Positions 29,461 through 63,470 of a DNA stretch of 64,000 nucleotides are shown one piece after another. This DNA comes from Corallium rubrum (Eukaryota; Cnidaria; Anthozoa; Scleralcyonacea; Coralliidae). The notes under the pieces were generated by a model. That model had not been told where the DNA came from. It did no database searches and saw nothing but the letters and a program-made list of their open reading frames with translations. The position numbers and the translations under genes were made by a program. The DNA is taken from assembly GCA_964035015.1 (NCBI GenBank), contig OZ035997.1, positions 23,063,834-23,127,833 on the forward strand, written 5' to 3'. Position 1 is the first letter of the stretch, and every line of letters starts with the position of its first letter.

Positions 29461-31537
29461 GTCATTTATTTAAGGGGCTTATTTATTTTCCTTATAAAAG
29501 GGAGCTGAACAGAGCCTGGGGCTGCTGGGGGATATTTGGTTAAACTTAGCCATGTATTTTGCTGATTTATGATGACAAATCAGGGGCTGTGGAGCATTTC
29601 AGAGTGGAAGGGGCAGTCAAGTTGCAAAGATTGGGGGGGGGGGATGCAGTTGTGTATGTTGCACAAAGTCTAAAGTTCTAAACACTGTGTGCTATTTGAT
29701 TATGAATCAGTTTTTTGCAGCGAAGTATGTATTTCAAACCTTTTAGATCCACATTTTCTATTTGATTAATGTCAGCTGAATAATATTATAAAGAACCAAT
29801 CTATACCCAGTATAAACAAATTAATATCAGGAAAGTGACCCCCTCACTCTGTCACTCTGCAGTCCCTTTGAATGTAGTAAATCTCAGTGGTGGCAGAAGA
29901 TGCTTTATATATTGGAGGTGTGTGTGTGGTGGTGGTGGTGGTGGCGATGAAAATTTTTGTTCTCCTCGATGAATCCAGTATGCAAAGGGAGGAACACACA
30001 GTGAGATATCTCTCATCCTGGTAAGAAAAATAGGGCTAAAAATTGACTAAAATTTTTGAAGGGGTCACAATGCACTCCCATGCCTTATTATTTGATGAAT
30101 TACCCCCCCCCCCCCAATACATAAAACATCTGCCACCACTGAGGTCTAATAAAATTAAAAGGCCACAGAGTGAGGGGGGGGGGGGGGGGGAACTTTCCTG
30201 ATATTAATTTGTTTATACTGGGTATAGAGTGGTTCTAATTATTCAGTTGACATTAATCAATCTATTGGATCTAAAAAGTTTGAAATACATACTTTGCTGC
30301 AAAAAACTGATTCATAACCAAATAGCACACATTGTTTAGAACTTTCTACCAATGTACACAACTGCATCCCCCCTCCCTGCAATCTTTTCCATTTGACTTC
30401 CCCTTCCACTCTGAAATGCTACACATCCCCTGATTCATCATTATAAATCGGCAAAATACAGGGCTAAATTTAACCAAATATCTCCCAGCAGCCCCAGCCT
30501 CTGTTTAGCTTCCTTTTATAGGGAAAATAAAGAAGCCCCCAGGGGGTGGGTTGGGGTGGGGGGCTACATATAGGAAATTACAGTAGTCTGAGTACATGTA
30601 TAATTTCATAGCACATGTCTTTACAAATATCAGGTTGCTTTTTGAACTAAACAAGTACTCAGTAAACCTTTCAATTTTTTCCAAATCTGATAAAGTTTGA
30701 AGGTTTGAAGGCACAAAGCAACTTGTGCAGTTGTGCTGTGCACAACTCTGGCTGTTTATTCTACTTTAAAACAGTTATTACATCGCAATAAAATTTGAAA
30801 CGACATTAAAACAAGTCAAAATAATGGTAATTACCTCAACGGAAAAGTCCAAATGACTCCTGTTGCCCATAAATACTCCTTTGAAATAACTCCACTCCTT
30901 AATCGGAATAATCGCCGCCATCTTGACTTGTCTATTTCCGATTTTACGTACCGAAGCTTTCCGACGAATCGTCGGAATGACGTCACTACATCAACTGAGT
31001 GCAGAATAACCTCACCCTAGTCAAGAAGCAACCCTACAACCTCGTACCCAGGGTTTTTCACTCTAGCGAGAGAAAGACCCTGGTAGGAGCTGCTGACGAT
31101 TTGCTGACGTTGCACCGAGCAAAAAATTTAATACGGGAGGGGAGGTTCTTTGTGTGCAATTGTTATTTTGGTGAGTTCTGTCGTCTACGCCGGCTAATCC
31201 AGTTATTTATAATAAGACTGAAATGTTTCTATCTCATTTCAAACGCTTACTGGTCAATAATTACTTGTTTAAAAATGGAGACATCAATTGAAGATTACTC
31301 ATATTGGAGATTTCATGCCTAAAACATTGTCTTGGCTAGCTGAAAATTCTATCTTCGATTTATCGCTTTGGAATTTTAAAGCAGGTTAGTTTTCGCACTT
31401 TATTTTTTACAATAGCAGTGGCAGGTCGATCAAACAGTTCGAAGTCTGGCCGCTTCATTTGGTAGCAAGTATAGAGCATTGTTTTCAATTTAAAACCAGT
31501 ATAACGCCAATGGTATTGTATTAAAAACTTAAGTTAT

Positions 31538-32079
31538 CTATGGTGGCCCATTGTTCTCATAGTAAATTAGTGAATAGAAATTTATAGAAAACAAGAAAAA
31601 CATAAAATAAAATAAAATAAATAAAAATAAAATAATATGTATGGCAAAATAAATAAATATAAAAAAATAAATTTAAAAAAATTAAAATGAAAAAAATAAA
31701 ATAAATAAAAATAAAATTTAAATAAAAAAATTAAATAAAAAACAAATTAAAAAACAAATCAAAATGAAAAAAATAAATAAAAATAAATTAAATAAAAAAA
31801 TAAATAAATAAAAAATAAATAAATAATAAAAAATAAATAATAAAAAAATAAATTTAAATTAAAAAATAAAAACCAACATGCGATTTCCATTTCAAAATGA
31901 AAATGAAATTCAACTTTCAAATTGTGAAAAAGCCCAACGTTCTCATTTGATTTAGAAAAAAACAACTTATACACGACTTTCGTTTCAAAAATCAAAATCA
32001 AATGTTGTTAAAAAGCCCATCGTTCTCATAGACCATGATGCACCTCGGCCAGTAGCTTAGTGACCGCGAGTCTTCATAT
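31538..32079 (+). repeat. Left ~545-bp TIR
   Basis: Outer 60 bp unique, then ~320 bp of A-rich (AAATAAA)n-type sequence, then ~180 bp ending GACCGCGAGTCTTCATAT, six bases before the integrase ATG. It probably contains the promoter for that gene. Confidence 0.9.
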
Positions 32080-32084
32080 TCAAA

Positions 32085-32414
32085 ATGGCGGAAAGAATTG
32101 TGAATGTTGAATGGCAAAATGACGATGGACTTCGAGATGATCTCAGGAACTATGTTCTCCAAAATTTTAAGAGAAAAGAGATTCTAGATTTCATGACAAG
32201 GGACTATTGCCAATACGCTTGGAGCCTAGGCACTTTAAGTAGAAGATTGAAATATTTTGAAATAAAGTATGTTGACTATGATGTGAGTGTGGAGGAAGTA
32301 GAGGAAGCTGTGCGCGAAGCTCAAGATGGTCCAGGTCAGCTCTTAGGCTACCGTTCGTTGCATAAGAAAGTTCGTGAAGGTCATGGTCTTCCAGTGCCCA
32401 GGGGGCTTGTATCA
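32085..32414 (+). pseudogene. Integrase gene, exon 1 (N-terminal region)
   Basis: ATG six bases inside the TIR edge. Reads MAERIVNVEW, then a helical HTH-like region (LRNYVLQNFKRKEILDFMTR, YCQYAWSLGTLSRRLKYFEI) and GPGQLLGYRSLHKKVREGHG ending VPRGLV, where similarity to the remembered family stops. The start is well supported. This region would bind the TIR ends. The next coding segment, expected to hold the first catalytic Asp, is absent: 32415-34486 holds SINEs and satellites instead. The real donor is unclear. Confidence 0.75.
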
Positions 32415-32767
32415 CCCGATTCGCACACTTGTCCACGGCTGCCAGCCGTCAAAAATCTCGCCGATTGCTCGGCTACCAGCCGGGATGTACGGTAGTATAC
32501 GGTAATCTAAAAATTGTCCCTCTGGGTCCCTCATGTTGCGCCCAGGCTTCAACGCAACCTACAAAATGCGCAATATATAATTTAGCGCAGAGGAGCGGCA
32601 GTTTTACGCAGCAGAAAAGCCTAGAAATGGCAAGAATTACACGAAAACATTGCCTTAGTAAGCTCAGGACCTTAGAAAATTATTAAATAACAAGAAAAAA
32701 GCCGAAAGAAAACCAAAACGAACTAAATAAAAACATATGAACGAGCGCAGCACAAAACGAAAAACTA

Positions 32768-32842
32768 AGCCGAGGAGGAATCGAACCCAGCCACTTCAAC
32801 ACTTCACAGACTGTGCTATCCACTAGACCATCACGCCTTCAC
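32768..32842 (-). repeat. tRNA-derived SINE head
   Basis: Minus strand has A box TGGTCTAGTGG and B box GGTTCGATTCC at tRNA spacing. Acceptor and D stems do not pair well, so not a working tRNA. Confidence 0.6.
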
Positions 32843-32965
32843 AATGTAATAAGGCAAACTTGAGGTTTTATAGCGGCGGATTAGCTAAAGTAACTTAAAA
32901 CCTGATGGTGTAATCTTTATTTCTATATGATTCTAGCAATAAGTAGTATACTAATTAGTGAATAA

Positions 32966-33648
32966 ATACATAAAATACATAAAATAAATAAAATAAATAA
33001 AATAAAATAAATAAAATAAATAAAATAAATAAAATAAATAAAATAAATAAAATAAATAAAATAAATAAAATAAATAAAATAAATAAAATAAATAAAATAA
33101 ATAAAATAAATAAAATAAATAAAATAAAATAAATAAAATAAATAAAATAAATAAAATAAATAAAATAAATAAAATAAATAAAATAAATAAAATAAATAAA
33201 ATAAATAAAATAAATAAAATAAAATAAATAAAATAAATAAAATAAATAAAATAAAATAAATAAAATAAATAAAATAAATAAAATAAATAAAATAAATAAA
33301 ATAAATAAAATAAATAAAATAAATAAAATAAATAAAATAAATAAAATAAATAAAATAAATAAAATAAAATAAATAAAATAAATAAAATAAATAAAATAAA
33401 TAAAATAAATAAAATAAATAAAATAAATAAAATAAATAAAATAAATAAAATAAATAAAATAAATAAAATAAAATAAATAAAATAAATAAAATAAATAAAA
33501 TAAATAAAATAAATAAAATAAATAAAATAAATAAAATAAATAAAATAAATAAAATAAATAAAATAAATAAGATAAATAAGATAAATAAGATAAATAAAAT
33601 AAATAAAATAGATAAAATAATTAAAATAAATAAATAAATACATACATA
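32966..33648. repeat. (ATAAA)n / (AATAAAATAA)n microsatellite
   Basis: About 680 bp of AATAAAATAA-type units with periodic single-unit shifts. Similar in composition to the A-rich part of the TIRs, from which it may have grown. Open frames here are artefacts. Confidence 0.95.
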
Positions 33649-33650
33649 CC

Positions 33651-33967
33651 TACCGCAGTACATTACGGCTACCAGCCGATCATACTGTAGTATATTGCAG
33701 TACACCACGGCTACCAGCCGATCACACTGTAGTATACTGTAGTACATTACGGCTACCAGCCGGTCACACTGTAGTATACTACTGCAGTACGTTACGGCTA
33801 CCAGCCGATCATACTGTAGTATACTGCAGTACGTTACGGCTACCAGCCGATCATACTGTAGTATACTGCATTATATTACGGCTACCAGCCGATCACACTG
33901 TAGTATACTGCAGTACGTTACGGCTACCAGCCGATCACACTGTAGTATACTGCATTACATTACGGCT
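33651..33967. repeat. ~42-bp minisatellite
   Basis: Seven or so units built on TTACGGCTACCAGCCGATCA and CACTGTAGTATACTGCAGTA. Related strings appear once near 32490, suggesting local origin. Confidence 0.9.
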
Positions 33968-34213
33968 ACTTGAAAATAAAAGAGATTTCTTTTTTTTGTG
34001 TATTCATGAAGCCGGTATTTTTAGAACGTTTTTGTTGGTATACGGAACAAAGTTTTAACATATATTTTTGTTTTAAGTTTAGCTTTTAATTTTCTCACAT
34101 TGGCTGAATTGCAAAGGACGCAGATCAACGTGGCCGTGTCGAGGCATATCAAGGCGCTCGAAGCAGCCGCCAACGACAGTTCAGACCACGGATCACAGCT
34201 GAGATGTTAGGTG

Positions 34214-34438
34214 TTGATTTTTTATGGAGGGAGGAAAACCGGAGAACCCGGCGAAAAACCCTCGAAGCACAGGAGAGATCAACTACAAACTCTACTCACA
34301 TGAGTCCAAGCCGGACAACGGGGTCATTCCCAAACGGTCACCCATCCAAGTACTAACCCCGTCTAACCGGGCTTAACTATTGGTGAGAGGCAGCGCGCTA
34401 ACAGCACACACCACCCGTGCTCCCCAAGAGCAACTGAT
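34214..34438 (-). repeat. 5S-rRNA-derived SINE
   Basis: Minus strand begins GGGGAGCACGGGTGG, continues TTAGCGCGCTGCCTCTCACC and holds GTTAGTACTTGGATGGGTGA (34336-34359), the 5S internal promoter. A related head is at 12128. Confidence 0.75.
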
Positions 34439-34486
34439 TCATTTAACAATTGTTTTCTTCTGTTAAGCATTAAGTCAACATTTAAG

Positions 34487-34607
34487 ACTGGATAAGGGAT
34501 CAGAAATGGGATCAATAGCAACCATTCATGGATTCCTTAGAACATTTCACCCAGAAATTGGAAATCCAGAAGATGGAGTAAAATTTGGTCCATCAACAAG
34601 CAATAAG
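34487..34607 (+). pseudogene. Integrase gene, exon with second catalytic Asp
   Basis: Acceptor ACATTTAAG, donor AATAAG before GTAAAG. Reads LDKGSEMGSIATIHGFLRTF, then GNPEDGVKFG and PSTSNK. The D of LDKGSE fits the second acidic residue of the DDE triad; PSTSN is the usual segment before the third. Confidence 0.8.
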
Positions 34608-34725
34608 GTAAAGCATATTTAAAAATACTGTACATGTAGCTAAAATAATATTATAATTCTAGGAAACATGTATGCATTTACAATAATGTATAACATTACA
34701 ATTACCATTCATTTTAATGCTCTCA

Positions 34726-34835
34726 ATTGAGAGATGGTGGCGTGATTTGCATCACAGATTTGAAAAGTATTTCAAAAGGCAATTGAATATGCTGTTAGAA
34801 CAAGGCTTCTATGATCAACATGATCAAACTGACAG
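34726..34835 (+). pseudogene. Integrase gene, exon with third catalytic Glu
   Basis: Reads IERWWRDLHHRFEKYFKRQL, LLEQGFYDQHDQTD with donor ACAG before GTACAG. E of IERWW is the third catalytic residue, about 39 residues after the Asp of LDKGSE. The base pair before ATTGAG is CA, not AG, so the expected acceptor is lost. Using the next AG would drop the catalytic Glu. This is a likely inactivating change. Confidence 0.75.
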
Positions 34836-35127
34836 GTACAGTTGCAACACTTTCTCAAATAGTTCCACAGGAAATCAACTACAACACAACTTTGAGAATT
34901 CATATTGATTACTGATGCTTGTAATTATCAGCATGCAATTCCTTCAGATGTTTAAATGCAATACTGTAGCCAAAACATGTGTCAACATGACAGCTTCCAT
35001 TATCTCTCACTGGCATTACTACCAGTATAAATAATTAACAATTAAATCACTAACTGGTATACTACTCTGTTGCACTACCCTGTATGTACATTTGTAAACA
35101 CTAAAAAATATTTTTCTCTTTAATAAG

Positions 35128-35297
35128 GGACTTGTTGGCATTCATATATATTCCAATTATTCAAAAGGAAATAGATGTTTTCTATAAATGTACATGGAAC
35201 ACCCACAGGATAAGACAGCAAAAGGATGCACAAATGCCAAAGGGAATTCCTGATCATGTTTTTAATTTTCCTGAAAACTATGGTCATGAACAATGTG
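35128..35297 (+). pseudogene. Integrase gene, exon after the catalytic core
   Basis: Acceptor TTTAATAAG; phase matches the previous exon. Reads DLLAFIYIPIIQKEIDVFYK, WNTHRIRQQKD, MPKGIPDHVFNFPENYG, ending at donor TGTG before GTAAGC. WNTHR...P.G.P is the target-capsule-like segment seen after rve domains of this family. Confidence 0.8.
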
Positions 35298-35682
35298 GTA
35301 AGCCAAGGACAAATACAGTGTTAAAGCATATTTTTTACACCTACTGTATGCAGTTAACAATTATGGTAAAGTAAATAATCTTGCTAATTGAAATTTGAAA
35401 GTATGTAATGTGCACATCTTGCTGTTATGGATCTATGTAATTGGCCAAGTAATTGTAATGGAATGGAATAATTCAATAGATTCAAAGCTTTTTTAACATT
35501 TTCATACAATTTAAGGATTGTTCAAATGTCTAAAGACTTAAAATTCATGTGTAAAGGTTCTGTAAATACTTTTAAGGATTTAAATGGCCTATACAAACCA
35601 GGTCTGTGGTTGACATTTTGATAATATCAAAGCTTCAGCAACATGGACTAGCAAATAATGACCTTATATTGGTACATTACAG

Positions 35683-35882
35683 GTCTGCCTATTACAGATG
35701 AAGCACTTGATGAAGTTAGAGAACTATCAGGAGTAATGGATGTAGGAGAAGACTTTCTTGACGCTGATGTTCGTAGGGAGTGTGAACAAATTATCCCAGA
35801 AATTGATCAAGTTAAACCAGCTGATGCAGCAGATACATATTTGTTTCTGAAACATCATTATGGACAATCAGAGCATATATGA
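35683..35882 (+). pseudogene. Integrase gene, last exon
   Basis: Acceptor GTACATTACAG; phase matches. Reads LPITDEALDEVRELSGV, FLDADVRRECEQIIPEID, ADAADTYLFLKHHYG and stops at 35882. Open and well kept, so the exon chain 34487-35882 is readable apart from the acceptor before 34726. Confidence 0.8.
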
Positions 35883-35993
35883 CTACCATAACTGTATTGT
35901 GGATAATACCAACTATTCTATTTAACTTCATAAAAACCCTTGCAATATAAATATTTGAAGATACAAACTTGACACACTGTAATACATGTATAT

Positions 35994-36144
35994 CTAGGGA
36001 TGAGCCGGATACCAGTTTCCAGCAAAATAGACATCCATTATCAGAGAAAATTTTCTGGATAGTTATTGAACTTCTTTCCCCTTACTTGTCTCTGCTGGAC
36101 TATTATCTGGTATGCCAGTAAATCAGTATCCGGCACATCCCTAG
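35994..36144. mobile_element. 151-bp TIR element in the integrase 3' flank
   Basis: Ends CTAGGGATGAGCCGGATAC and inverted GTATCCGGCACATCCCTAG. Confidence 0.7.
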
Positions 36145-36158
36145 ATGTATCTGTACAG

Positions 36159-36164
36159 AATAAA
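36159..36164 (+). terminator. Poly(A) signal of the integrase gene
   Basis: AATAAA about 280 bp after the stop and 200 bp before the end of the convergent kinase gene. Confidence 0.4.
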
Positions 36165-36363
36165 TCATTTTATACTGTATGATATGTATATACGTTTTTA
36201 AATCCTTATGTACAAAGGTACAAAACTATGTGTTCGTCCCACTTTGAATAACGTAAATGCCAAAATCTAGTATACAGTATTTTGTGTCATATAAAGTACA
36301 CAGTTTCCACATAAAACATTCAGTTCACTCTTGAATACGAAATGTACTGTTAAGTAAAGTTTC

Positions 36364-37302
36364 TCACTTCTTTAATTCCAACATCTCGCAATACTTGTTG
36401 CAAACATGATTGTTCATAAATGTATCAATAGCCACATGTGCCAGGTTCCCACAGCAGAAATATATTTCAGCTTCTTCATCTTCTGCATCATAGAGGTCTT
36501 TGGTGGCAATTTCTGGGTCATACAAGTGATATCTGGAACCCTGGATATCAACTAGGAGCATCTTGTTATCTGTGGCAATATAGCTGAAGTGAACAAGAGC
36601 TTGGGCCTTGTCCTGGATGGTTTTGATTTCAATTTCACAATCGGGGCCAAGATCAACACAGTTTCCATTATTGTTAATATACTTAACAAATTTACCTTCA
36701 ACAAATTCTTCTATTGTTGCAGGTCGACCATCAAGCTGGGTATAGTAGATGTTATTGTATGCGAAACACCTTCCAAATTCTTCTGGGACCTTTGAAGAAA
36801 ATTTCCTTGCAATGACTTGTGCAACAGAATTCATCTGTACTTGCTTTCTTGTGCGGTTTTCAACACTTGTCTTCAGTGTATCACTGATGATCCTCAATGC
36901 ATCTAGGTTGTATTTTTTTACAACCCATTTTTTCTTACTGGAGCCTTTTTCAACAGCTAAAAAGGCATCTCTAAAGCCACCAGAAGAGAACTCCTCATCA
37001 TCGACCATTGCTGTGATATTCATTCCTGGCTCCCACTGCCGAGTTTCCATGTTGAACTTCTCTACTTCAAGTGATATCAGTTTTCTTGCTTTTGGCCTAA
37101 CCAAACGACCAGCTCTGAGCAATTCCTCCACAGATATCGAAGCTGGGTATGTAATCTCCACACTCGGCTTGACAGACTGAACTGGGGCTGATAGATTGTG
37201 CTTCCTAATTCTTTGTGGGTGTTTAGTATTTAACTCGTCGTCGTCATCATCACCATCATCATCTTCGTGGTCTTGCAACAATGCAAATCGCACAAGGTAT
37301 AC
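36364..37302 (-). CDS. Alpha-kinase, exon 2 (catalytic domain)
   Basis: Acceptor TTTGCTAG before 37302, phase 0, stop at 36364; with exon 1 it gives 425 aa. After an acidic stretch (HEDDDGDDDDDE) the atypical alpha-kinase domain (MHCK/EF2K/TRPM7 family) follows: FSSGGFRDAF loop, WVVKKY (ATP-binding Lys), FVEGKFVKYINNNG, LVHFSYIATDN (zinc His), LLVDIQG and LYDPEIAT (catalytic Asp/Gln/Asp region), and FMNNHVCNKYC (H.C...C zinc site). All signature residues are present, so an active Ser/Thr kinase is predicted. The substrate is unknown. It lies inside the long-TIR element, convergent with the integrase gene. Confidence 0.92.
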   Translation of the reverse strand, partial: VYLVRFALLQDHEDDDGDDDDDELNTKHPQRIRKHNLSAPVQSVKPSVEITYPASISVEELLRAGRLVRPKARKLISLEVEKFNMETRQWEPGMNITAMVDDEEFSSGGFRDAFLAVEKGSSKKKWVVKKYNLDALRIISDTLKTSVENRTRKQVQMNSVAQVIARKFSSKVPEEFGRCFAYNNIYYTQLDGRPATIEEFVEGKFVKYINNNGNCVDLGPDCEIEIKTIQDKAQALVHFSYIATDNKMLLVDIQGSRYHLYDPEIATKDLYDAEDEEAEIYFCCGNLAHVAIDTFMNNHVCNKYCEMLELKK

Positions 37303-38398
37303 CTAGCAAATACGAAAAGGCCTGTTATTACTGTGCACAAATGCATGCACAAGGCAGTCAGTCTAAAACAGGAGGGGGGGGGGGGGGGGGGGGGTAAATA
37401 AGAACACAACAATGCTAGTGTATAAGGTGTCTTGGCAATGTGAAATCCAGAAAATATTACCCCTGCAAAAAATACCCCAGTGTGCATGGAGACTTTTCTT
37501 ATAAAACCACAGCAAAAGGTTGTAACTGTAAGGCTTGACATTGACTGGCACATAATGGTACACATTTGCTAAATGTAGCTTAGTCCTTTGTTGTCCTTTT
37601 GTTTAATAAATCAAACAACAACTATTTTGCTTAATATATCCACATGGAAAACAGGGGGTGGACATTAAGTGGAATGGCCCATCATCAATGTTCTCTGAAA
37701 GTGGGTGGGGGGGACTAGGGAAAGTCTATACTGTTAAAGTAATGGTCTGGGTAATAATTTATTACATGACAAGTTTCAGCAAAATTGACAAGTCTTAGGG
37801 GCTGTTTATATGAGGCGAGCTAGCCCGGTTACCGAGTTAGCCGGGTAAGCGAGATGATTTGTGGCTCGCGTTTATATGGGAAAAATTCATCCCATTTACC
37901 GAGATGATTTCAGTGCCAAACAATAGACGGCGTCGGTACCCCTTTGAAAATTCATCTCGGTAAGCGGGCCAGCCCGGCTGTGAGTGTTTTATATGAGAAT
38001 TTTTCAGCCCGCTTACCGAGATCTCGCCTCTCTCAAGCAAGATCTCGCTAACCGGGCTGGCCCGCTTGTCCATATAAACGCACCGGAATTCCTAACAACA
38101 ACATAACTACGCGATGAGATCTCGCTTACCGAGCTAGCCCGGTAACTGGGCTAGCTCGCGGCGCTCGCCTACCATATAAACAGCCCCTAACTTGTTAAAC
38201 AAGTCTAAATGAAATGTTAAGAAATCATGTTTGAAAACAGATTTTATACCAGCAACATTTTCGTATAAAAGCAGGCTGGTGAAATTCATTTTCACGATAG
38301 ACATATTAGTCGACGAGGGAGAAATAGGACAATATGTTCCATGTCTGTGAACTGTATATTTGTTTAGAATAAATCAATAAATTATTGTGTTTGCTTAC
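37303..38398. other. Intron of the alpha-kinase gene
   Basis: GTAAGC...TTTGCTAG, 1096 bp. Holds a G-run (37373-37395) and the TIR element at 37798-38187. No other coding sequence. Confidence 0.85.
37798..38187. mobile_element. MITE in the kinase intron
   Basis: Inverted ends GGGGCTGTTTATATG / CATATAAACAGCCCC with many CCGGGCTAGC/GCTAGCCCGG palindromes inside. 390 bp, non-coding. Confidence 0.85.
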
Positions 38399-38737
38399 CT
38401 TGTCTTTTCGATATGGTATCTGATTGATATTCGTACACGAGGGGCCTTTATTTGATACCAGAACATCGCACGTTGCGTACGGCAGATTAAAATGTGATGC
38501 ACATGCTTTTTTAAGATTTAGCAGTGTGAGTTCTTTATATTCAAATGAGACGAACTCACGTGGTTGAATTGGCTTGTACGTCTGTTTGTTGTCTGGCTCG
38601 GATGAGAGCCTTTGGACGATTATTTCAGACGGCGCATTAGGCGTTTTACCGCTTGCTTTCTGTCCATCTTTTGTGGTTCGCTTCGCTGACATTTTTTGAG
38701 CCAGGTTATCCCAAACTGCTTTTCCTTTAGGTGGCAT
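38399..38737 (-). CDS. Alpha-kinase, exon 1 (N-terminal region)
   Basis: ATG at 38737, 48 bp inside the right TIR edge; donor GACAAG before GTAAGC at 38398, phase 0. 113 aa: basic start MPPKGKAVWDNLAQKMSAKR, a disordered linker, then FVSFEYKELTLLNLKKACA and PSCTNINQIPYRKDK, continuing across the splice as VYLVRF. The segment FEYKELTLLNLKKA looks like a ubiquitin-like or PB1-like strand-helix unit; I recall similar N-termini in other invertebrate alpha-kinases. Confidence 0.85.
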
Positions 38738-38784
38738 TATTTTGAATGTTTGAATGAAGATTAAGAATTAAGTAAAGAAACACG

Positions 38785-39335
38785 ATATGAAGACTCGCGG
38801 TCACTAAGCTACTGGCCGAGGTGCATCATGGTCTATGAGAACGATGGGCTTTTTAACAACATTTGATTTTGATTTTTGAAACGAAAGTCGTGTATAAGTT
38901 GTTTTTTTCTAAATCAAATGAGAACGTTGGGCTTTTTCACAATTTGAAAGTTGAATTTCATTTTCATTTTGAAATGGAAATCGCATGTTGGTTTTTATTT
39001 TTTAATTTAAATTTATTTTTTTATTTTTTTATTATTTATTTTTTATTATTTATTTATTTTTTATTTATTTATTTTTTTATTTAATTTATTTTTATTTATT
39101 TTTTTCATTTTGATTTGTTTTTTAATTTGTTTTTTATTTAATTTTTTTTATTTAAATTTTATTTTTATTTATTTTATTTTTTTCATTTTAATTTTTTTAA
39201 ATTTATTTTTTTATATTTATTTATTTTGCCATACATATTATTTTATTTTTATTTATTTTATTTTATTTTATGTTTTTCTTGTTTTCTATAAATTTCTATT
39301 CACTAATTTACTATGAGAACAATGGGCCACCATAG
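38785..39335 (-). repeat. Right ~550-bp TIR
   Basis: Inverted, nearly identical copy of 31538-32079, differing by small length changes in the A/T runs. It ends next to the kinase start and probably supplies its promoter. Confidence 0.9.
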
Positions 39336-39817
39336 TTATCTGTCATTTTTTGAGTTCACTCCATGCAATGTTCGGCCTAATCTTATTACTTATATATGAC
39401 TTTTCAGTCAGCAATAGCGATTATTCATCGTTAAGTATAAAATTGCGATTTTTAACAGTGTCCCACGTTATTTTGTCACTGATTGTAGTTTATAATGAAG
39501 TTAAGTTTTGTCGAAGAAGTATATGCAGAAGAGTTTTTCAGTTCTGTTTTAAGCGTTTGTACGTGTCATTTCAATAACATTTCTTACAAAATTCTAAGCC
39601 TCAAATGCCAAGATATAATTACACAGCAAAACCAACTGCTGTTTTGTATAATTTTAGTGATATCTGCGATTCAAGAAGGGGAGAGGGAAATTTGGAGTCG
39701 GAAACACGAATTAACTAATAAACAGATAGTTTATATTGTGCCGAGTTTCAGGAGCTTTTCATTTTCAGTGATGAGTTTCTGTCGGTTATTGTCGGGGAAG
39801 GATAAAGGGTTTTACTG

Positions 39818-54259: not shown

Positions 54260-55785
54260 GTGTGGGTTTTGGTCTACGAAACGCAAAGAGTGCTCGATAA
54301 CATATAGTTAGAGCAAATATAGATTTTCACTTACCTCAAAAGTCTGCTACAGGCTGTTTCATCTAAAAAAGAATCTTCAGGCAGATGACAATTTTCGAAA
54401 ACAGGGGGTGCTTATATCCTTCTTGTCGGAACGTGGGAGTGTGGGGGCGAAACAATACATGCATTCATGGCTTTGTTGCGCTGTTTGCGCGGAATTTGTT
54501 CCGATGACGACATTGACTGATAATTTCTGCTCTTTTGTTGAGTAAACAATTCTTGTTTTTATCTTTCAAAATATAAATTTTTTCTTCTAAACATAAATTA
54601 CATCGTTTTGAACCTCCCGTATACGAAATAGAATATTTTAAAATTTGCCAATTAATACTAAAATCCTTATTGTTTTCTTTCAATGCCCAAATATATTTCG
54701 AAAGTTCGGTGTCGTTTGCATGCTTTTTATGCTGAAAAGATTTAGTGTGGTTGGCCAATCGCTCTTTGAATGTGGTTGAAGTCATGCCAATGTAATTCTT
54801 GATCGTGTTTGTGTTGTTTACTGTGACTGTTGCTTTGTATACTATGTCCCTAGTCATGCATTGTTTTCTAAGTGGACAATTCGTGTTTTTCTTACAATTG
54901 CAACTGCTAGTGTCCTTATCCTGTGGCATGTTATTCCTAGATATGTGTGCATTGTGTTTAGTGATTATTGACTTAACATTGTTCATGCAGCTGTAACTTA
55001 CTTTGACTGTGTTTCTGTTAAAAATCTTATGGAGCTTGTGGTGTGGTGGGAAGTGCTTGTCAATTAGGTTTAGGAAATTACGTCCTATGTTTGTGCTTAC
55101 ACTCTTGCTAAAAGGTGGGTTGAACCAAGTGATGTTGCGTTGCCTATTCCTGCGTGGTTGCTGTGCTGTGTGTTGATCGAGTGTAGCTAAGATCATGATC
55201 AAAGTTGCTGTGCCTAAGTGCGTTCTGATATATGGGTGCAGATTCCTGAAAAACTTGTTCGTCTGATGAGAGAAGTGCAATGCGCTTGTTGATTGATGCA
55301 GGTAACTGTCTTGTGATGCTTGGTGGGTGGTTAGAGTGCTTATTTATGTAAAGCGGATCGTCATTGGGCTTCCTATAGGGCCTATAATTTCCATTGTTAA
55401 GGTCGAAAGTTACATCTAAAAAGTTTACTATGCGTAAATTTGATTCGGCGGTAATTTTTAGGTCAAACTGCTCGAAAATTTTGTGGAGTTCTTTCCTTGT
55501 TTTGTCTGCTAAACGTGCTGATTTACTTTTTATAATAGCTAAACCGTCATCTCTATATAGGCCAATGCTTTCTTTGCCAAACTTCTCTTAGGTGATTTAA
55601 AATGAAAAGGCCTACTAACTCACAAACTTCCGCGCCGTCGAAACAACCCATGGTAACGTCAAACAAACTATTGCTATCTTTTTTTATCCATGAAATTCCG
55701 GTATTGAAAAGGAGAGATTTTCTAGCGTGTTTTATTATTGAAATATTGTTTTCAGTTACAGTAGCCAAATTCGAGGCCCGAGGTC
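54189..55785 (-). mobile_element. Penelope-like element, minus-strand partner of an inverted pair
   Basis: From the AT-tract pseudo-LTR module (54189-54420) through the GIY-YIG ORF into RT sequence, ending head-to-head with a plus-strand copy at 55785. Confidence 0.85.
54465..55785 (-). pseudogene. Penelope RT/GIY-YIG polyprotein
   Basis: RT part in two frames: KDSNSLFDVTMGCFDGAEVC, then (frameshift near 55590) GLYRDDGLAIIKSKSARLAD (YRDD catalytic motif), NFLDVTFDLNNGNYRPYRK and HSNHPPSITRQLPASINK. The GIY-YIG part (54465-55280) reads RNITWFNPPFSKSVSTN, CNCKKNTNCPLRKQCM, YIGMTSTTFKERLANH, SKYIWALKENN, RCNLCLEEK, ending RANSATKP. The nuclease part is intact; the whole is broken by the frameshift and 5' loss. 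Confidence 0.88.
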
Positions 55786-58545: not shown

Positions 58546-59994
58546 TTAATCGGAATCAGAGTCATCGCTTATCATGATTCTTCGCCTTTTGCTTGTTGTT
58601 GGCTGGCTGTTGCTACAATCTTTGTCGCTTTTTAAATATTGGATGTTGAAAGTACAACCTTCGAACTTGCCGATGGAAGCGCCAGAAAACAGCCCAGTAT
58701 CCTGTGAATGCACAGGTGCAGTGGCATTAAACTTCGTAGCATGATAGCTGATGGTAGAACTCGACGATTGTGATTCTATGTGATTTCTCACGGGAACGTC
58801 GTCGTTGTTTTGTTGATACGATGTAGATGACCTGCTCAACACATTTGACATTTTTCGCTGATGGACGCGAGAAGCCGTTTTATACGAATCGAGACTCTTC
58901 AGATTCCTATGACCGCTTAACTGGGCTACAAAGTTGGCTGGTATATCTGCATCCATCAACCGGGAAATGCAGGTTTTTCTCACGCTGTGGTTAGTGATGT
59001 TGCCTTCGATGTGTGCATTTTTTGCTGCTTTCGAGAGAAATTTGCTAATCTCGTTTTTTCCCAACGGAGCTCTCCGATACCATACGGGATTTTCAGGTCT
59101 TCTCTGGTGGTTAATTGCGAGAAAAAACGGGGCTTCTGGAACTATCATTTCATCGGGTCGATGTTTCGTGAATTCTTTGTAGACTCGGACGGGACAACGC
59201 TCGCCATTTGATGCCTCTGCAACCGGGCTAAATGCTCGTTGTTGACCATTTCCGTCGCGTGTTTTTGATCCTCGTTCCGACTGCCAAACTAAAAACTCGC
59301 CGCCGTTTGCTTCGTCTCCACACAATTTGACATCACCCCACTTCAGACGTCTACTTTCATCCCTGGCACGAAAACCAAAATGGAGGGAAAGAAGCCACCA
59401 TACGGTACGCTGAAGAGCTTCGGGATTGCCGTAACCAAACTCGCCAATACGAAAAAGTTCATCTTCTTCGTCTGCTGTTAACTCGCGAGCAGCTTGTGGT
59501 CGATTTCCCTTGGCGTTTTCCCGCACGACTTCTTTTCGCTTGGCGGACAAAACTTCTCTGGCTTTGTTGAATGCTTGATCTTTGTAAATGTTTATCAAGG
59601 AATTTTGGTCGTTCAGATAGCGCTGAAGACTTCTCACGAAACAGGTCAAAGTGTTTGGTTCATACGCTGTGCCATCTTTCTTTTTTGCTTGCATCAAAAA
59701 TCGACAAACGTATACGTTCAACTCTTCAGGAGGTATGTTTTCAATATTTCGTTGTTCGTTCTCAGATTCAAAGTATCTTCCCCAGCCATTCATGTCATAT
59801 CTTGTTTTTTTCACTGTGTTTTCAGGGCGCTTTGATAAAATAAAATCTTGAATATCGCTCGCAATTTCGTCGTTGTTGACATTTTCAATGTTTTTGTAAC
59901 TCGTTGAAGCTGAAATTGGCTCGTTTTCCAGAGAGTTTAAATCGTCTGGGTAGTAAAATTCGCTCTCACTATGATAGATATCATCGGAGAACAT
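58546..59994 (-). CDS. Crypton-type tyrosine recombinase
   Basis: 482 aa in one uninterrupted exon. The N-terminal SAM-like/core-binding region is residues ~45-160 (EIASDIQDFILSKRPENTVK, PPEELNVYVCRFLMQAKKKD). The catalytic part reads LHFGFRARDESRRLKWGDV (first Arg), NHSVRKTCISRLM (H..R), LSGHRNLKSLDSY (H and nucleophile Tyr). These complete the R-H-R-H-Y set of tyrosine recombinases, and the DUF3504-like layout (GASIGKFEGCTFNIQYL near the C-terminus) is that of Cryptons and their domesticated relatives (QRICH1/ZMYM type). Basic tail SKRRRIMI. All key residues are intact, so it is either a young Crypton or a co-opted gene. Confidence 0.88.
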   Translation of the reverse strand: MFSDDIYHSESEFYYPDDLNSLENEPISASTSYKNIENVNNDEIASDIQDFILSKRPENTVKKTRYDMNGWGRYFESENEQRNIENIPPEELNVYVCRFLMQAKKKDGTAYEPNTLTCFVRSLQRYLNDQNSLINIYKDQAFNKAREVLSAKRKEVVRENAKGNRPQAARELTADEEDELFRIGEFGYGNPEALQRTVWWLLSLHFGFRARDESRRLKWGDVKLCGDEANGGEFLVWQSERGSKTRDGNGQQRAFSPVAEASNGERCPVRVYKEFTKHRPDEMIVPEAPFFLAINHQRRPENPVWYRRAPLGKNEISKFLSKAAKNAHIEGNITNHSVRKTCISRLMDADIPANFVAQLSGHRNLKSLDSYKTASRVHQRKMSNVLSRSSTSYQQNNDDVPVRNHIESQSSSSTISYHATKFNATAPVHSQDTGLFSGASIGKFEGCTFNIQYLKSDKDCSNSQPTTSKRRRIMISDDSDSD

Positions 59995-60475
59995 TTTTTT
60001 TCACTAGTTTGAACAATTTACATTCTCATTAAATCAATTTTCAAAATTAAAGGCCACTTTGTAAAAACTTTGTAAACAAAAAAATAACTCTCCTGCCCGC
60101 GGGCTAAATATCGTAAAAAGCCGCCCGCTCGCGTGGCCAATCAAATTGCAGGAAATCACAAAATAACACTTCCGGACCGGAAATAAAAAAATAAACAGCG
60201 ATATTTGGATAGTTAGTTATTTGGATAGTAGAAAACCGGAAAAAAAGGGTTTGACAGATTTTGTCAGCCAATCAAATTTATCACTCGTGAACTACTTCAT
60301 GTATGCTTATTATTTTGTCTCGAAGACACGCTACTTCTCTGGCCTTTTTAGAGTTTTCTTTTTCCATAAAAATTTGTTGATCAGAGCAGTTGTATAATAA
60401 ATCTCTTATAAGATGTTTTGGTGTATAGTATCGCTGTATATTTTTACTCGTTGTTTGTATTTTGACTCGCCCTGC

Positions 60476-61600: not shown

Positions 61601-62888
61601 TTAAATAAAAGAAAAACGTTCGTTGAGTCCGTGAGGATGAATGGTACCAATTTTGAAAATGAGACGCTTTTCCAGTCTTTTGCGGCTGACATTACCGCCA
61701 GAAATCGGTGAGATGGCACAAACTTGCATGTCTGAAATACAATGGTTGGCACTATTAAAATGTCGGGCAAGAGGCTTGTCAACATCATTGTTCCTCACAG
61801 AACGAAGATGTTCAGCAAACCTGTCAGATAAACGTCTGACAGTTTCACCGATGTAAAGCATGCAACATTTATTGCCAGAAATACAGTAAATGATGTTGGA
61901 AGAGATGCAAGTAAAATTATGCTGAATAACAAAATTAGATTTAGGTCCCAAAATACATGTAGCAGAGTTAAGAAGGGAACACGTGTAACAACGCGTACGG
62001 GAGCAAGAAAAAGTACCCGCTGGTGCCAATAGATTTTTTCTAAGGGCACTACGCACTAAACCATCACGAATATTTTTATTACCCCGAAAAGAGATTAAAT
62101 GGTTGTCGGTGAAAATAGCTGACGTTTCAGGATCATTCTTTAGGATACGGAAATTGTAGCTAATGATATCCTTAACTTTGTAGTTGAAAGGATGAAATGT
62201 GAGAACTAATGGTATTTTAGTATCAGAAACTCTTTCTGCAGGTTGTTTGAAAGTGTCAGGACGAGGAATACTAGATGCTTTGTAAATAGCAATGTCTAAC
62301 AGGTGGGTGGGATAGCCACGCTGGACAAAAAAGGATCTCATTTCCAAACATTTGGTTTCAAAGTCTTTGTCATCACTGCATGGGAGGCGAAGTCGCAGAA
62401 ATTGAGAGTAAGGAATGGATTGTTTGGTGTGTTTGGGATGAGAGGATGAAAATAAAAGGTAACTATGTGAATCGGTCGGCTTATAAGATACAGAAGTCAT
62501 GAGCGAATGATCACTAATCGATACCAAGATATCCAGGAACGACACACAGGTTTCACTGATTTCCCATGTGAATTTGAGTGCTGGGTGGAAATCATTAACA
62601 TAATTAATAAATCTCTCTAAATTCACACGTGAACACGATGCTGTTCCGAAACAATCATCTATGTATCTCTTAAAGAGATCAGGAAAGGGTCCAGTGTATC
62701 GTTCAAAGATTTGTTTTTCAACATAACCAACAAATAAGTTTGCGTAGCTAGGGCCCATTTTGGTACCCATTGCTACTCCACCAATCTGTTGGTAATGTTC
62801 ATCATCAAATGAAAAATTGTTGAGGGTGAGTACAAGTTCTGCCAAGCGAAGTAATGTAGTGGTGGATGGTTCCAAAATGGTGCGTTGA
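61601..62888 (-). CDS. Penelope RT and GIY-YIG protein, N-terminus missing
   Basis: Open for ~428 codons without a stop. NNFSFDDEHYQQIGGVAMGT and MGPSYANLFVGY (motif B), LFKRYIDDCFG (YIDD), CVSFLDILVS, KPTDSHSYL (thumb), then CSRTRCYTCSLL (Cys pairs), CCMLYIGETVRRLSDRFAEH (GIY-YIG) and a C-terminal KRLEKRLIFKIGTIHPHGLN. Upstream open codons to 63010 (MVPILKMRRFSSLL...) are antisense of the adjoining inverted copy and not part of the protein. RT motifs 1-3 are lost, so this copy is inactive although its frame is clean. Confidence 0.9.
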
Positions 62889-63470
62889 CATTTTAATAGT
62901 GCCAACCATTGTATTTCGGACATGCAAGTTTGTGCCATCTCACCCATTTCTGGCGGCAATGTTAGCCGCAAAAGACTAGAAAAGCGTCTCATTTTCAAAA
63001 TTGGTACCATTCATCCTCACGGACTCAACGAACGTTTTTCTTTTATTTAATACCTCTGAAGACATTGTTTCTGTTCAGCAAGGGTGGACATAAACGGCGT
63101 TTTCACTTTATGTATTTATCTATTTTTACTCTCGCTCATCCTTTTTACACCCCCTCCTTTTTACACCCCCTCCTTTTCACACCCCCTCCTTCTTGCTCAT
63201 CGACGGTATGAATAGCAAATGTCTTTCGCATCTCATTATCGATTTGTAATTGTTATTTTGATTTGATTGGCTAATTTTTCGCATCTCATTATCAATTTGT
63301 TATTGTCATTTTCATCTGATTGGCTTATTTTGGTCACATGATTACCTTTCGTATATAAGCTCATTGTTTGTTTACACACTTTACGTTTCTCTCTGACGAA
63401 GGGCCTTCGCTCGAAACGTTAGACTCCTACGTTCTCTGTTTGGGCAGTTATCTAACCTTAGTAGTATGCA
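62889..63470 (+). mobile_element. Inverted 3' fragment of the same Penelope element
   Basis: 62889-63050 is the reverse complement of about 61600-61770, encoding the last ~50 residues of the GIY-YIG ORF on plus. It is followed by the 3' tail with the hammerhead-like motif at 63388. A 10-15-bp unit (CACCCCCTCCTTTT) is tripled at about 63145-63190. Confidence 0.88.
63388..63427 (+). ncRNA. Hammerhead-ribozyme-like motif
   Basis: TCT-CTGACGA, stem II GGG/CTC, GAAAC, GTT, AGA; stem I 3 bp. Confidence 0.5.

Follow-up and report, generated by a model that had tools for sequence, protein, structure and literature searches.

Whether a protein kinase can be a regular component of a cut-and-paste transposon is the question raised by a locus of Corallium rubrum. 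It lies in a stretch of 64,000 nucleotides of contig OZ035997.1 (assembly GCA_964035015.1, positions 23,063,834 to 23,127,833 of the forward strand), which is referred to as the window, and consists of a transposon in which an integrase-type transposase gene and an alpha-kinase gene read towards each other. An earlier note on this DNA had proposed that the element has the kinase as a standing second gene, and this proposal was borne out, since a convergent integrase was found at all 29 distinct kinase loci of this genome for which local sequence was read (the best-scoring of at least 111 loci, not a random sample) and at 87 of the 111 kinase loci listed. As most relatives of the element in this genome also carry the kinase, it appears to be a functional component of the transposon and not a stowaway.

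The element and its copies

The transposon was found to occupy positions 31539-39334 of the window (7,796 bp), starting with TATGG and stopping with CCATA, so that the span first proposed (31538-39335) was one base too wide on each side. Its terminal inverted repeats (TIRs), described earlier as near-identical and about 545 bp long, are real: when the first and last 541 bases were aligned, 532 identities, 18 gap columns and no mismatches were counted in 550 columns. The fact that the arms differ by gaps alone argues for a young insertion. A flanking duplication had also been recognized correctly, though not its length, as the TTAT first reported is the middle of the 6-bp GTTATC that flanks both ends, and a 4-bp duplication was thereby ruled out. 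An 18-bp motif, CTATGAGAACGATGGGCC, was observed at both the outer and the inner border of the TIRs, with 6, 6, 7 and 3 sites in four elements when up to 4 mismatches were accepted. At the same tolerance, the rest of the window (56,100 bases) contained no site, and the motif may represent a transposase binding site. The features of the element are as follows.

31533-31538, no strand: left target-site duplication GTTATC, identical to 39335-39340
31539-32079, plus strand: left TIR, starting with TATGGTGGCCCATTGTTCTC, the far end of the element being the reverse complement
31545-31562, minus strand: outer copy of the 18-bp motif, putative transposase site
31931-31948 (4 mismatches) and 32014-32031: inner copies of the motif in the left TIR
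32085-32412, plus strand: integrase exon 1, truncated, residues 1-109
32413-34425, no strand: unrelated repeats (2,013 bp) replacing a 617-bp piece that codes for residues about 110-208 in the copy on contig C12
34468-34607, plus strand: integrase exon 3, predicted second catalytic Asp region, LRLDKGSE
34726-34835, plus strand: integrase exon 4, IERWWR, predicted catalytic Glu region, with 4 bases at the splice acceptor unlike the C12 copy
35128-35297, plus strand: integrase exon 5
35683-35882, plus strand: integrase exon 6, including the stop codon
36364-37302, minus strand: kinase exon 2, alpha-kinase domain, 312 amino acids and stop
37303-38398, minus strand: kinase intron with GT..AG borders, in the same position in families 2 and 3
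38399-38737, minus strand: kinase exon 1, 113 amino acids, the best-conserved part of the protein between families
38785-39334, minus strand: right TIR
38833-38850, 38916-38933 and 39311-39328: mirrored copies of the motif in the right TIR
39335-39340, no strand: right target-site duplication GTTATC

The kinase gene reads inward from the right TIR on the minus strand and encodes 425 amino acids in two exons (113 + 312) with no internal stop, exon 2 matching Pfam Alpha_kinase PF02816 (E 1.1e-30; 107.5 bits, cut-off 21.3). A complete alpha-kinase gene convergent with the integrase, as it had been described, was confirmed. On the plus strand, pieces of the integrase gene read inward from the left TIR, and here the position and orientation given before were right and the intactness was not. 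Nucleotide homology between the window and the C12 copy ends at 32412 and starts again at 34426, and the window integrase keeps residues 1-109 and about 209-414 of 414, while residues about 110-208 are gone, including D153, which was read by eye as the probable first catalytic Asp. Because this region was replaced by repeats, the integrase gene of the window is broken, and the window copy is, by its predicted reading frames, one in which the transposase was lost and the kinase retained. The replacing segment contains a minisatellite built of TACGGCTACCAGCCGATCA units, an array of (AAATAAAAT)n and, at 34310-34418, a 5S-like stretch that scored 29.7 bits in Rfam, under the gathering score of 38 bits; these repeats are perhaps remnants of short interspersed elements.

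The C12 copy (L010) presents an open integrase of 414 amino acids joined from six exons, which matched PF24764 rva_4 (E 2.7e-16, residues 145-325), and a kinase whose coding sequence falls in two frames. The putative catalytic residues D153, D217 and E257, read by eye, were all present in 9 of the 11 anchored alignment rows that cover them, and one of the two exceptions was the C12 copy itself, where intron sequence is read through at the E column. On the C12 copy, Pfam detected no HHCC zinc finger ahead of the integrase core, with no search aimed at the finger having been made.

As had been suggested as a check, further TIR copies holding both genes were found in this genome. A 63-base TIR query gave 9 matches at 6 places, of which four (window, C12, C24 and C82) hold both genes and two lone ends hold neither. 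The condition named in the earlier note as refuting, other TIR copies without the kinase, was thus examined, and the outcome favors the proposal. Besides the window element, perfect duplications flank the elements on C12 (CACGAG) and C24 (CACGTC) and a nested element on C82 (CCGCTG). Six further loci were extended and five of them delimited, with the duplications GTCCAG, CTTGAC, GTCATG and GATGGG and the imperfect ACACAC/GTACAC. In total, nine of ten two-gene elements examined were delimited; TATGG..CCATA ends were present in all nine and a perfect 6-bp duplication in eight. The ends were sought using this very pattern, and the adjoining duplications are an independent check on them. The imperfect duplication (4 of 6 bases matching) belongs to the C1 element (L032), which spans 3,921 bp and carries an open kinase of 425 amino acids and an open integrase of 403 amino acids; neither match is interrupted by an intron. 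For the C25 element (L038), the right terminus could not be located. Of the 30 kinase matches fetched with 1.5-kb flanks, 17 have an exact TATGGTGGC end on the 5′ side of the kinase.

The nested element on C82 (8,310 bp, TIRs 96% identical, genes convergent) had been inserted in a sister element, a copy of which on C24 provides the empty site, with 231 identities in 247 positions over the joined flanks. Since the joined flanks match the unbroken C24 site, both genes move as one unit, and kinase and integrase thus move together between TIRs with 6-bp duplications. The nested element extends from L014 5244 to L015 3553, within the terminal part of a related element, so that one transposon lies in another of its own kind; the family-2 element around it on C82 is degraded at its left end and showed no duplication.

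These observations bear on the possibility that the TIRs merely happen to flank a host kinase gene with a fixed locus; a kinase at a conserved host locus had been named in the earlier note as something that would undo its proposal. Nothing was found in favor of this possibility. The empty site on the sister element and the other copies in this genome ruled out such a locus, and the number of kinase loci, the convergent integrase at every one sampled and the perfect duplications render it scarcely credible.

Some smaller features of the element were also observed. A short inverted repeat (35993-36146, CATCCCTAGAT...), common to the C12 copy, is placed between the convergent genes. The kinase intron harbors a palindromic insert resembling a miniature inverted-repeat transposable element (37798-38190, TTAGGGGCTGTTTATATG...), present in the C12 copy too. 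The kinase intron of the latter contains a further insert (L010 2404-4415), not in the window copy, in which a reading frame presumably encodes a zinc finger and a hAT-like C-terminal part. No tRNA genes were found in the element by ARAGORN.

Pairing and co-inheritance of kinase and integrase

The kinase query gave 128 matches (best 127 of 162 candidates scored), which merged into at least 111 loci, and the integrase query gave 119 matches (best 101 of 1,128 candidates scored), in which loci with at least 40% identity to the query were counted as clade integrase loci. With a distance limit of 10 kb, a kinase was found near 80 of the 90 listed clade integrase loci (77 convergent, 3 on the same strand), and a clade integrase near 81 of the 111 listed kinase loci (79 convergent, 2 on the same strand). 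Eight of the remaining 30 kinase loci (C284, C265:298836, C49, C174, C18, C25:7374603, C8:22806946 and C52) revealed a convergent integrase by local sequence only, which leads to the 87 convergent loci mentioned above. The chance expectation of such pairing is about 0.5% per locus. Among the 30 fetched kinase matches, which represent the 29 loci, the integrase was seen in 28, and for L033 and L034 it was seen in longer sequence.

Integrases outside the clade behaved differently. A kinase was near 2 of the 11 listed loci of distant integrases (30-34% identity), both on the same strand, and, among the best 150 of 1,351 rva_4 candidates, 2 had a kinase within 10 kb, in divergent orientation in one case and on the same strand in the other. 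This near-absence indicates that the kinase belongs to this transposase clade and not to rva_4 at large. The rva_4 loci themselves, at least 150 as the best of the 1,351 candidates and mostly single frames of about 500 amino acids away from kinases, make up a large related transposon group.

Comparison between families revealed how the two proteins have changed. In kinase exon 1, non-synonymous differences (pN) were 0.125-0.147 at synonymous differences (pS) of 0.75-1.02, and in exon 2 pN was 0.34-0.37 at pS 0.79-0.87. The integrase blocks showed pN of 0.23-0.27 and 0.10-0.13 at pS 0.76-0.93, the conservation of kinase exon 1 being about equal to that of the transposase block holding the putative first Asp. 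No pN/pS ratio is given, because pS is saturated, and two near-identical family-2 copies (pS 0.02, pN 0.015) present too few differences to tell. These substitution patterns indicate strong purifying selection on the kinase. In addition, kinase and integrase distances were correlated (r 0.77; 26 loci, 321 of 325 pairs), a value reached in none of 2,000 permutations, the highest of which gave 0.34. The pair has, as these comparisons indicate, been kept across many diverged families of this genome.

Several observations weigh against a kinase that is both standing and functional. A convergent kinase within 10 kb was not found at 13 of the 90 listed clade integrase loci (none at 10, same strand at 3), and by these searches 22 of the 111 listed kinase loci lacked an integrase and 24 lacked a convergent partner. 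Such unpaired loci suggest that either gene may be dispensable or lost. At the lone TIR ends on C18 and C15, no kinase or integrase match was found in 13.5 and 13.4 kb, respectively, and each of the four copies of families 1 to 3 that were closely read has at least one broken gene. Identical kinase scores were found on pairs of contigs (e.g., C51/C79 and C1/C56), so uncollapsed haplotypes may inflate the counts. Finally, no fold could be assigned to the N-terminal region of the kinase by AlphaFold, Foldseek, phmmer or a three-family profile.

The many copies with a broken kinase or integrase, and the integrase loci that show no kinase, are what would be expected of a kinase that was captured and is carried along without being of use to the element. 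Such a passenger would not be expected to show saturated synonymous with low non-synonymous change, distances correlated with those of its neighbor and a conserved convergent order, nor to recur as the same pair in fungal IS3EU transposons, as the available part of PMC12730594 describes. For these reasons, a mere passenger is disfavored and seems very improbable.

The kinase and its possible role

The residues which we take to be the catalytic Lys, the DxQ motif and the zinc-binding His, His, Cys and Cys of alpha-kinases were inspected in the 29 kinase loci. All 28 loci that cover the Lys have kept it, all 29 retain the D and Q of DxQ, and 28 of the 29 have a complete zinc set, the exception being L027 (His to Tyr). 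With these residues retained, the kinase appears active. A search for the kinase in viral contigs (123 pattern matches) and in prokaryotic contigs (68 pattern matches) confirmed no relative.

The region encoded by exon 1 was less informative. An AlphaFold model of exon 1 alone had a predicted local distance difference test (pLDDT) score of 58.5, and for it Foldseek returned 522 matches at E <= 10, several of which were ubiquitin-like and none of which reached E <= 0.001. The one phmmer match of exon 1 in PDB was also a ubiquitin-like domain (E 0.1; 0.66 with the three-family profile), so that these matches hint at most at a ubiquitin-like fold. The model of exon 2 alone (mean pLDDT 32.3) was not used.

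The kinase is of the same family as TRPM7, eEF2 kinase and the myosin heavy chain kinases, which brings up the idea that it sets a cell state suited to transposition, for instance through a slowing of translation like that exerted by eEF2 kinase or through a change in the cell cycle. The likeness to this family concerns the catalytic domain only: the best PDB match was TRPM7 (1ia9, E 6.6e-11), eEF2 kinase matched more weakly (E 3.2e-06), and the N-terminal region fits neither of them. An effect on cell state is accordingly considered improbable.

It is instead proposed that the kinase acts with the transposase that cuts and pastes the same element. In this proposal, the kinase would phosphorylate the transposase, or the complex of transposase and TIR, and would in this way switch or meter transposition, its conserved N-terminal region aiming it at the transposase complex. 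The motif CTATGAGAACGATGGGCC, which lies at both borders of each TIR and thus on either side of each gene's start, is the putative binding site of the transposase, and transposase binding there could couple the expression of both genes. Control of the element's own transposase is the most likely role of the kinase, and we would give it about an even chance of being correct.

The main rival is counter-defence, in which the kinase would act on host small-RNA, chromatin, repair or checkpoint factors, blunting silencing or easing repair after excision. A kept active site and purifying selection would suit this role as well, and in the available part of PMC12730594 a counter-defence function was proposed for accessory enzymes carried by transposons, including TET in fungal IS3EU. 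However, a gene of general use in counter-defence should have spread to other elements, as TET genes did among 11 transposon lineages in fungi (PMC12730594, same part), whereas the kinase keeps to one transposase clade in this genome, and this fidelity favors a job tied to the transposase. This is an argument and not a test, and counter-defence is regarded as possible, if rather doubtful. Control of the transposase therefore stays the preferred reading, and more than 100 copies in many families, some with both frames open, make regulation of transposase or host by phosphorylation directly testable.

Other elements are present in the window. A 484-amino-acid frame at 58549-60000 on the minus strand resembles, by eye, a Crypton-like tyrosine recombinase, and frames at 54468-55587, 61604-63010 and others resemble, also by eye, Penelope-like elements and non-LTR (long terminal repeat) reverse transcriptases.

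Comparison with known systems

It is unusual for a cut-and-paste transposon to have a protein kinase as its fixed second gene. In a literature search, PMC12730594 was the only paper found to place an alpha-kinase in a transposon, and its available part suffices to correct the earlier statement that alpha-kinases were not known as transposon genes. The pairing of transposase and alpha-kinase is thus already known from fungi; to this, the present data add that the pair is standing, its number, the selection on it, the empty site and an animal host. Six matches to exons of integrin beta, a gene not known from fungi, were found on one contig and agree with such a host. The alpha-kinase family has also been called highly expanded in rusts and classed under protein modification (PMC4469406 and PMC5295586, as far as their available parts go). 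Together with the kinase-bearing IS3EU of rusts, this expansion suggests to us that expansions of the alpha-kinase family may be transposon genes. A wider and tentative reading is that the alpha-kinase could be a core IS3EU partner in animals and fungi, through which the transposon would control its own DDE transposase by phosphorylation, and that the transposon may have seeded genomes with alpha-kinase genes later counted as host expansions.

By its sequence, the element is best placed among the cut-and-paste DNA transposons of an IS3EU/GingerRoot-like type, its two convergent genes coding for a DDE (rva_4) transposase and an alpha-kinase. The TA..TA ends and the 6-bp duplication fit IS3EU/GingerRoot and not Ginger, to which the element had been likened before. 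Ginger1 and Ginger2, as presented in the part of PMC2836005 available, share with it an integrase-like transposase in animals, but have TGTNR ends, 4-bp duplications (5-bp in TDD) and an H2C2 zinc finger, none of which was observed here. Membership in Ginger was ruled out by the TATGG ends and the 6-bp duplication.

Among kinases, TRPM7, myosin heavy chain kinase A and eEF2 kinase have the same catalytic domain (DxQ, His, His, Cys, Cys) and differ in the N-terminal region, and the kinase described here is borne by a transposon. Among transposons, IS3EU/GingerRoot in general shares with the window element the TA..TA termini, the usually 6-bp duplications and the integrase-like transposase (PMC10045372). 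The account in the available part of that paper mentions no kinase, whereas the window element has one.

The closest system is that of the TET/JBP-bearing IS3EU of fungi, according to the part of PMC12730594 at hand. Rust-fungal IS3EU have TAYGG..CCRTA ends, and the fungal elements share with the window element such ends, 6-bp duplications and the opposite orientations of transposase and alpha-kinase. In all TET-bearing fungal families, the TET gene is placed between these two, whereas no third gene was seen in the window copy. As far as occurrences of the word in its text show (2 in all), that paper mentions the fungal alpha-kinase in passing, at one place of its discussion, and does not analyse it there, and the host of the window element is an animal.

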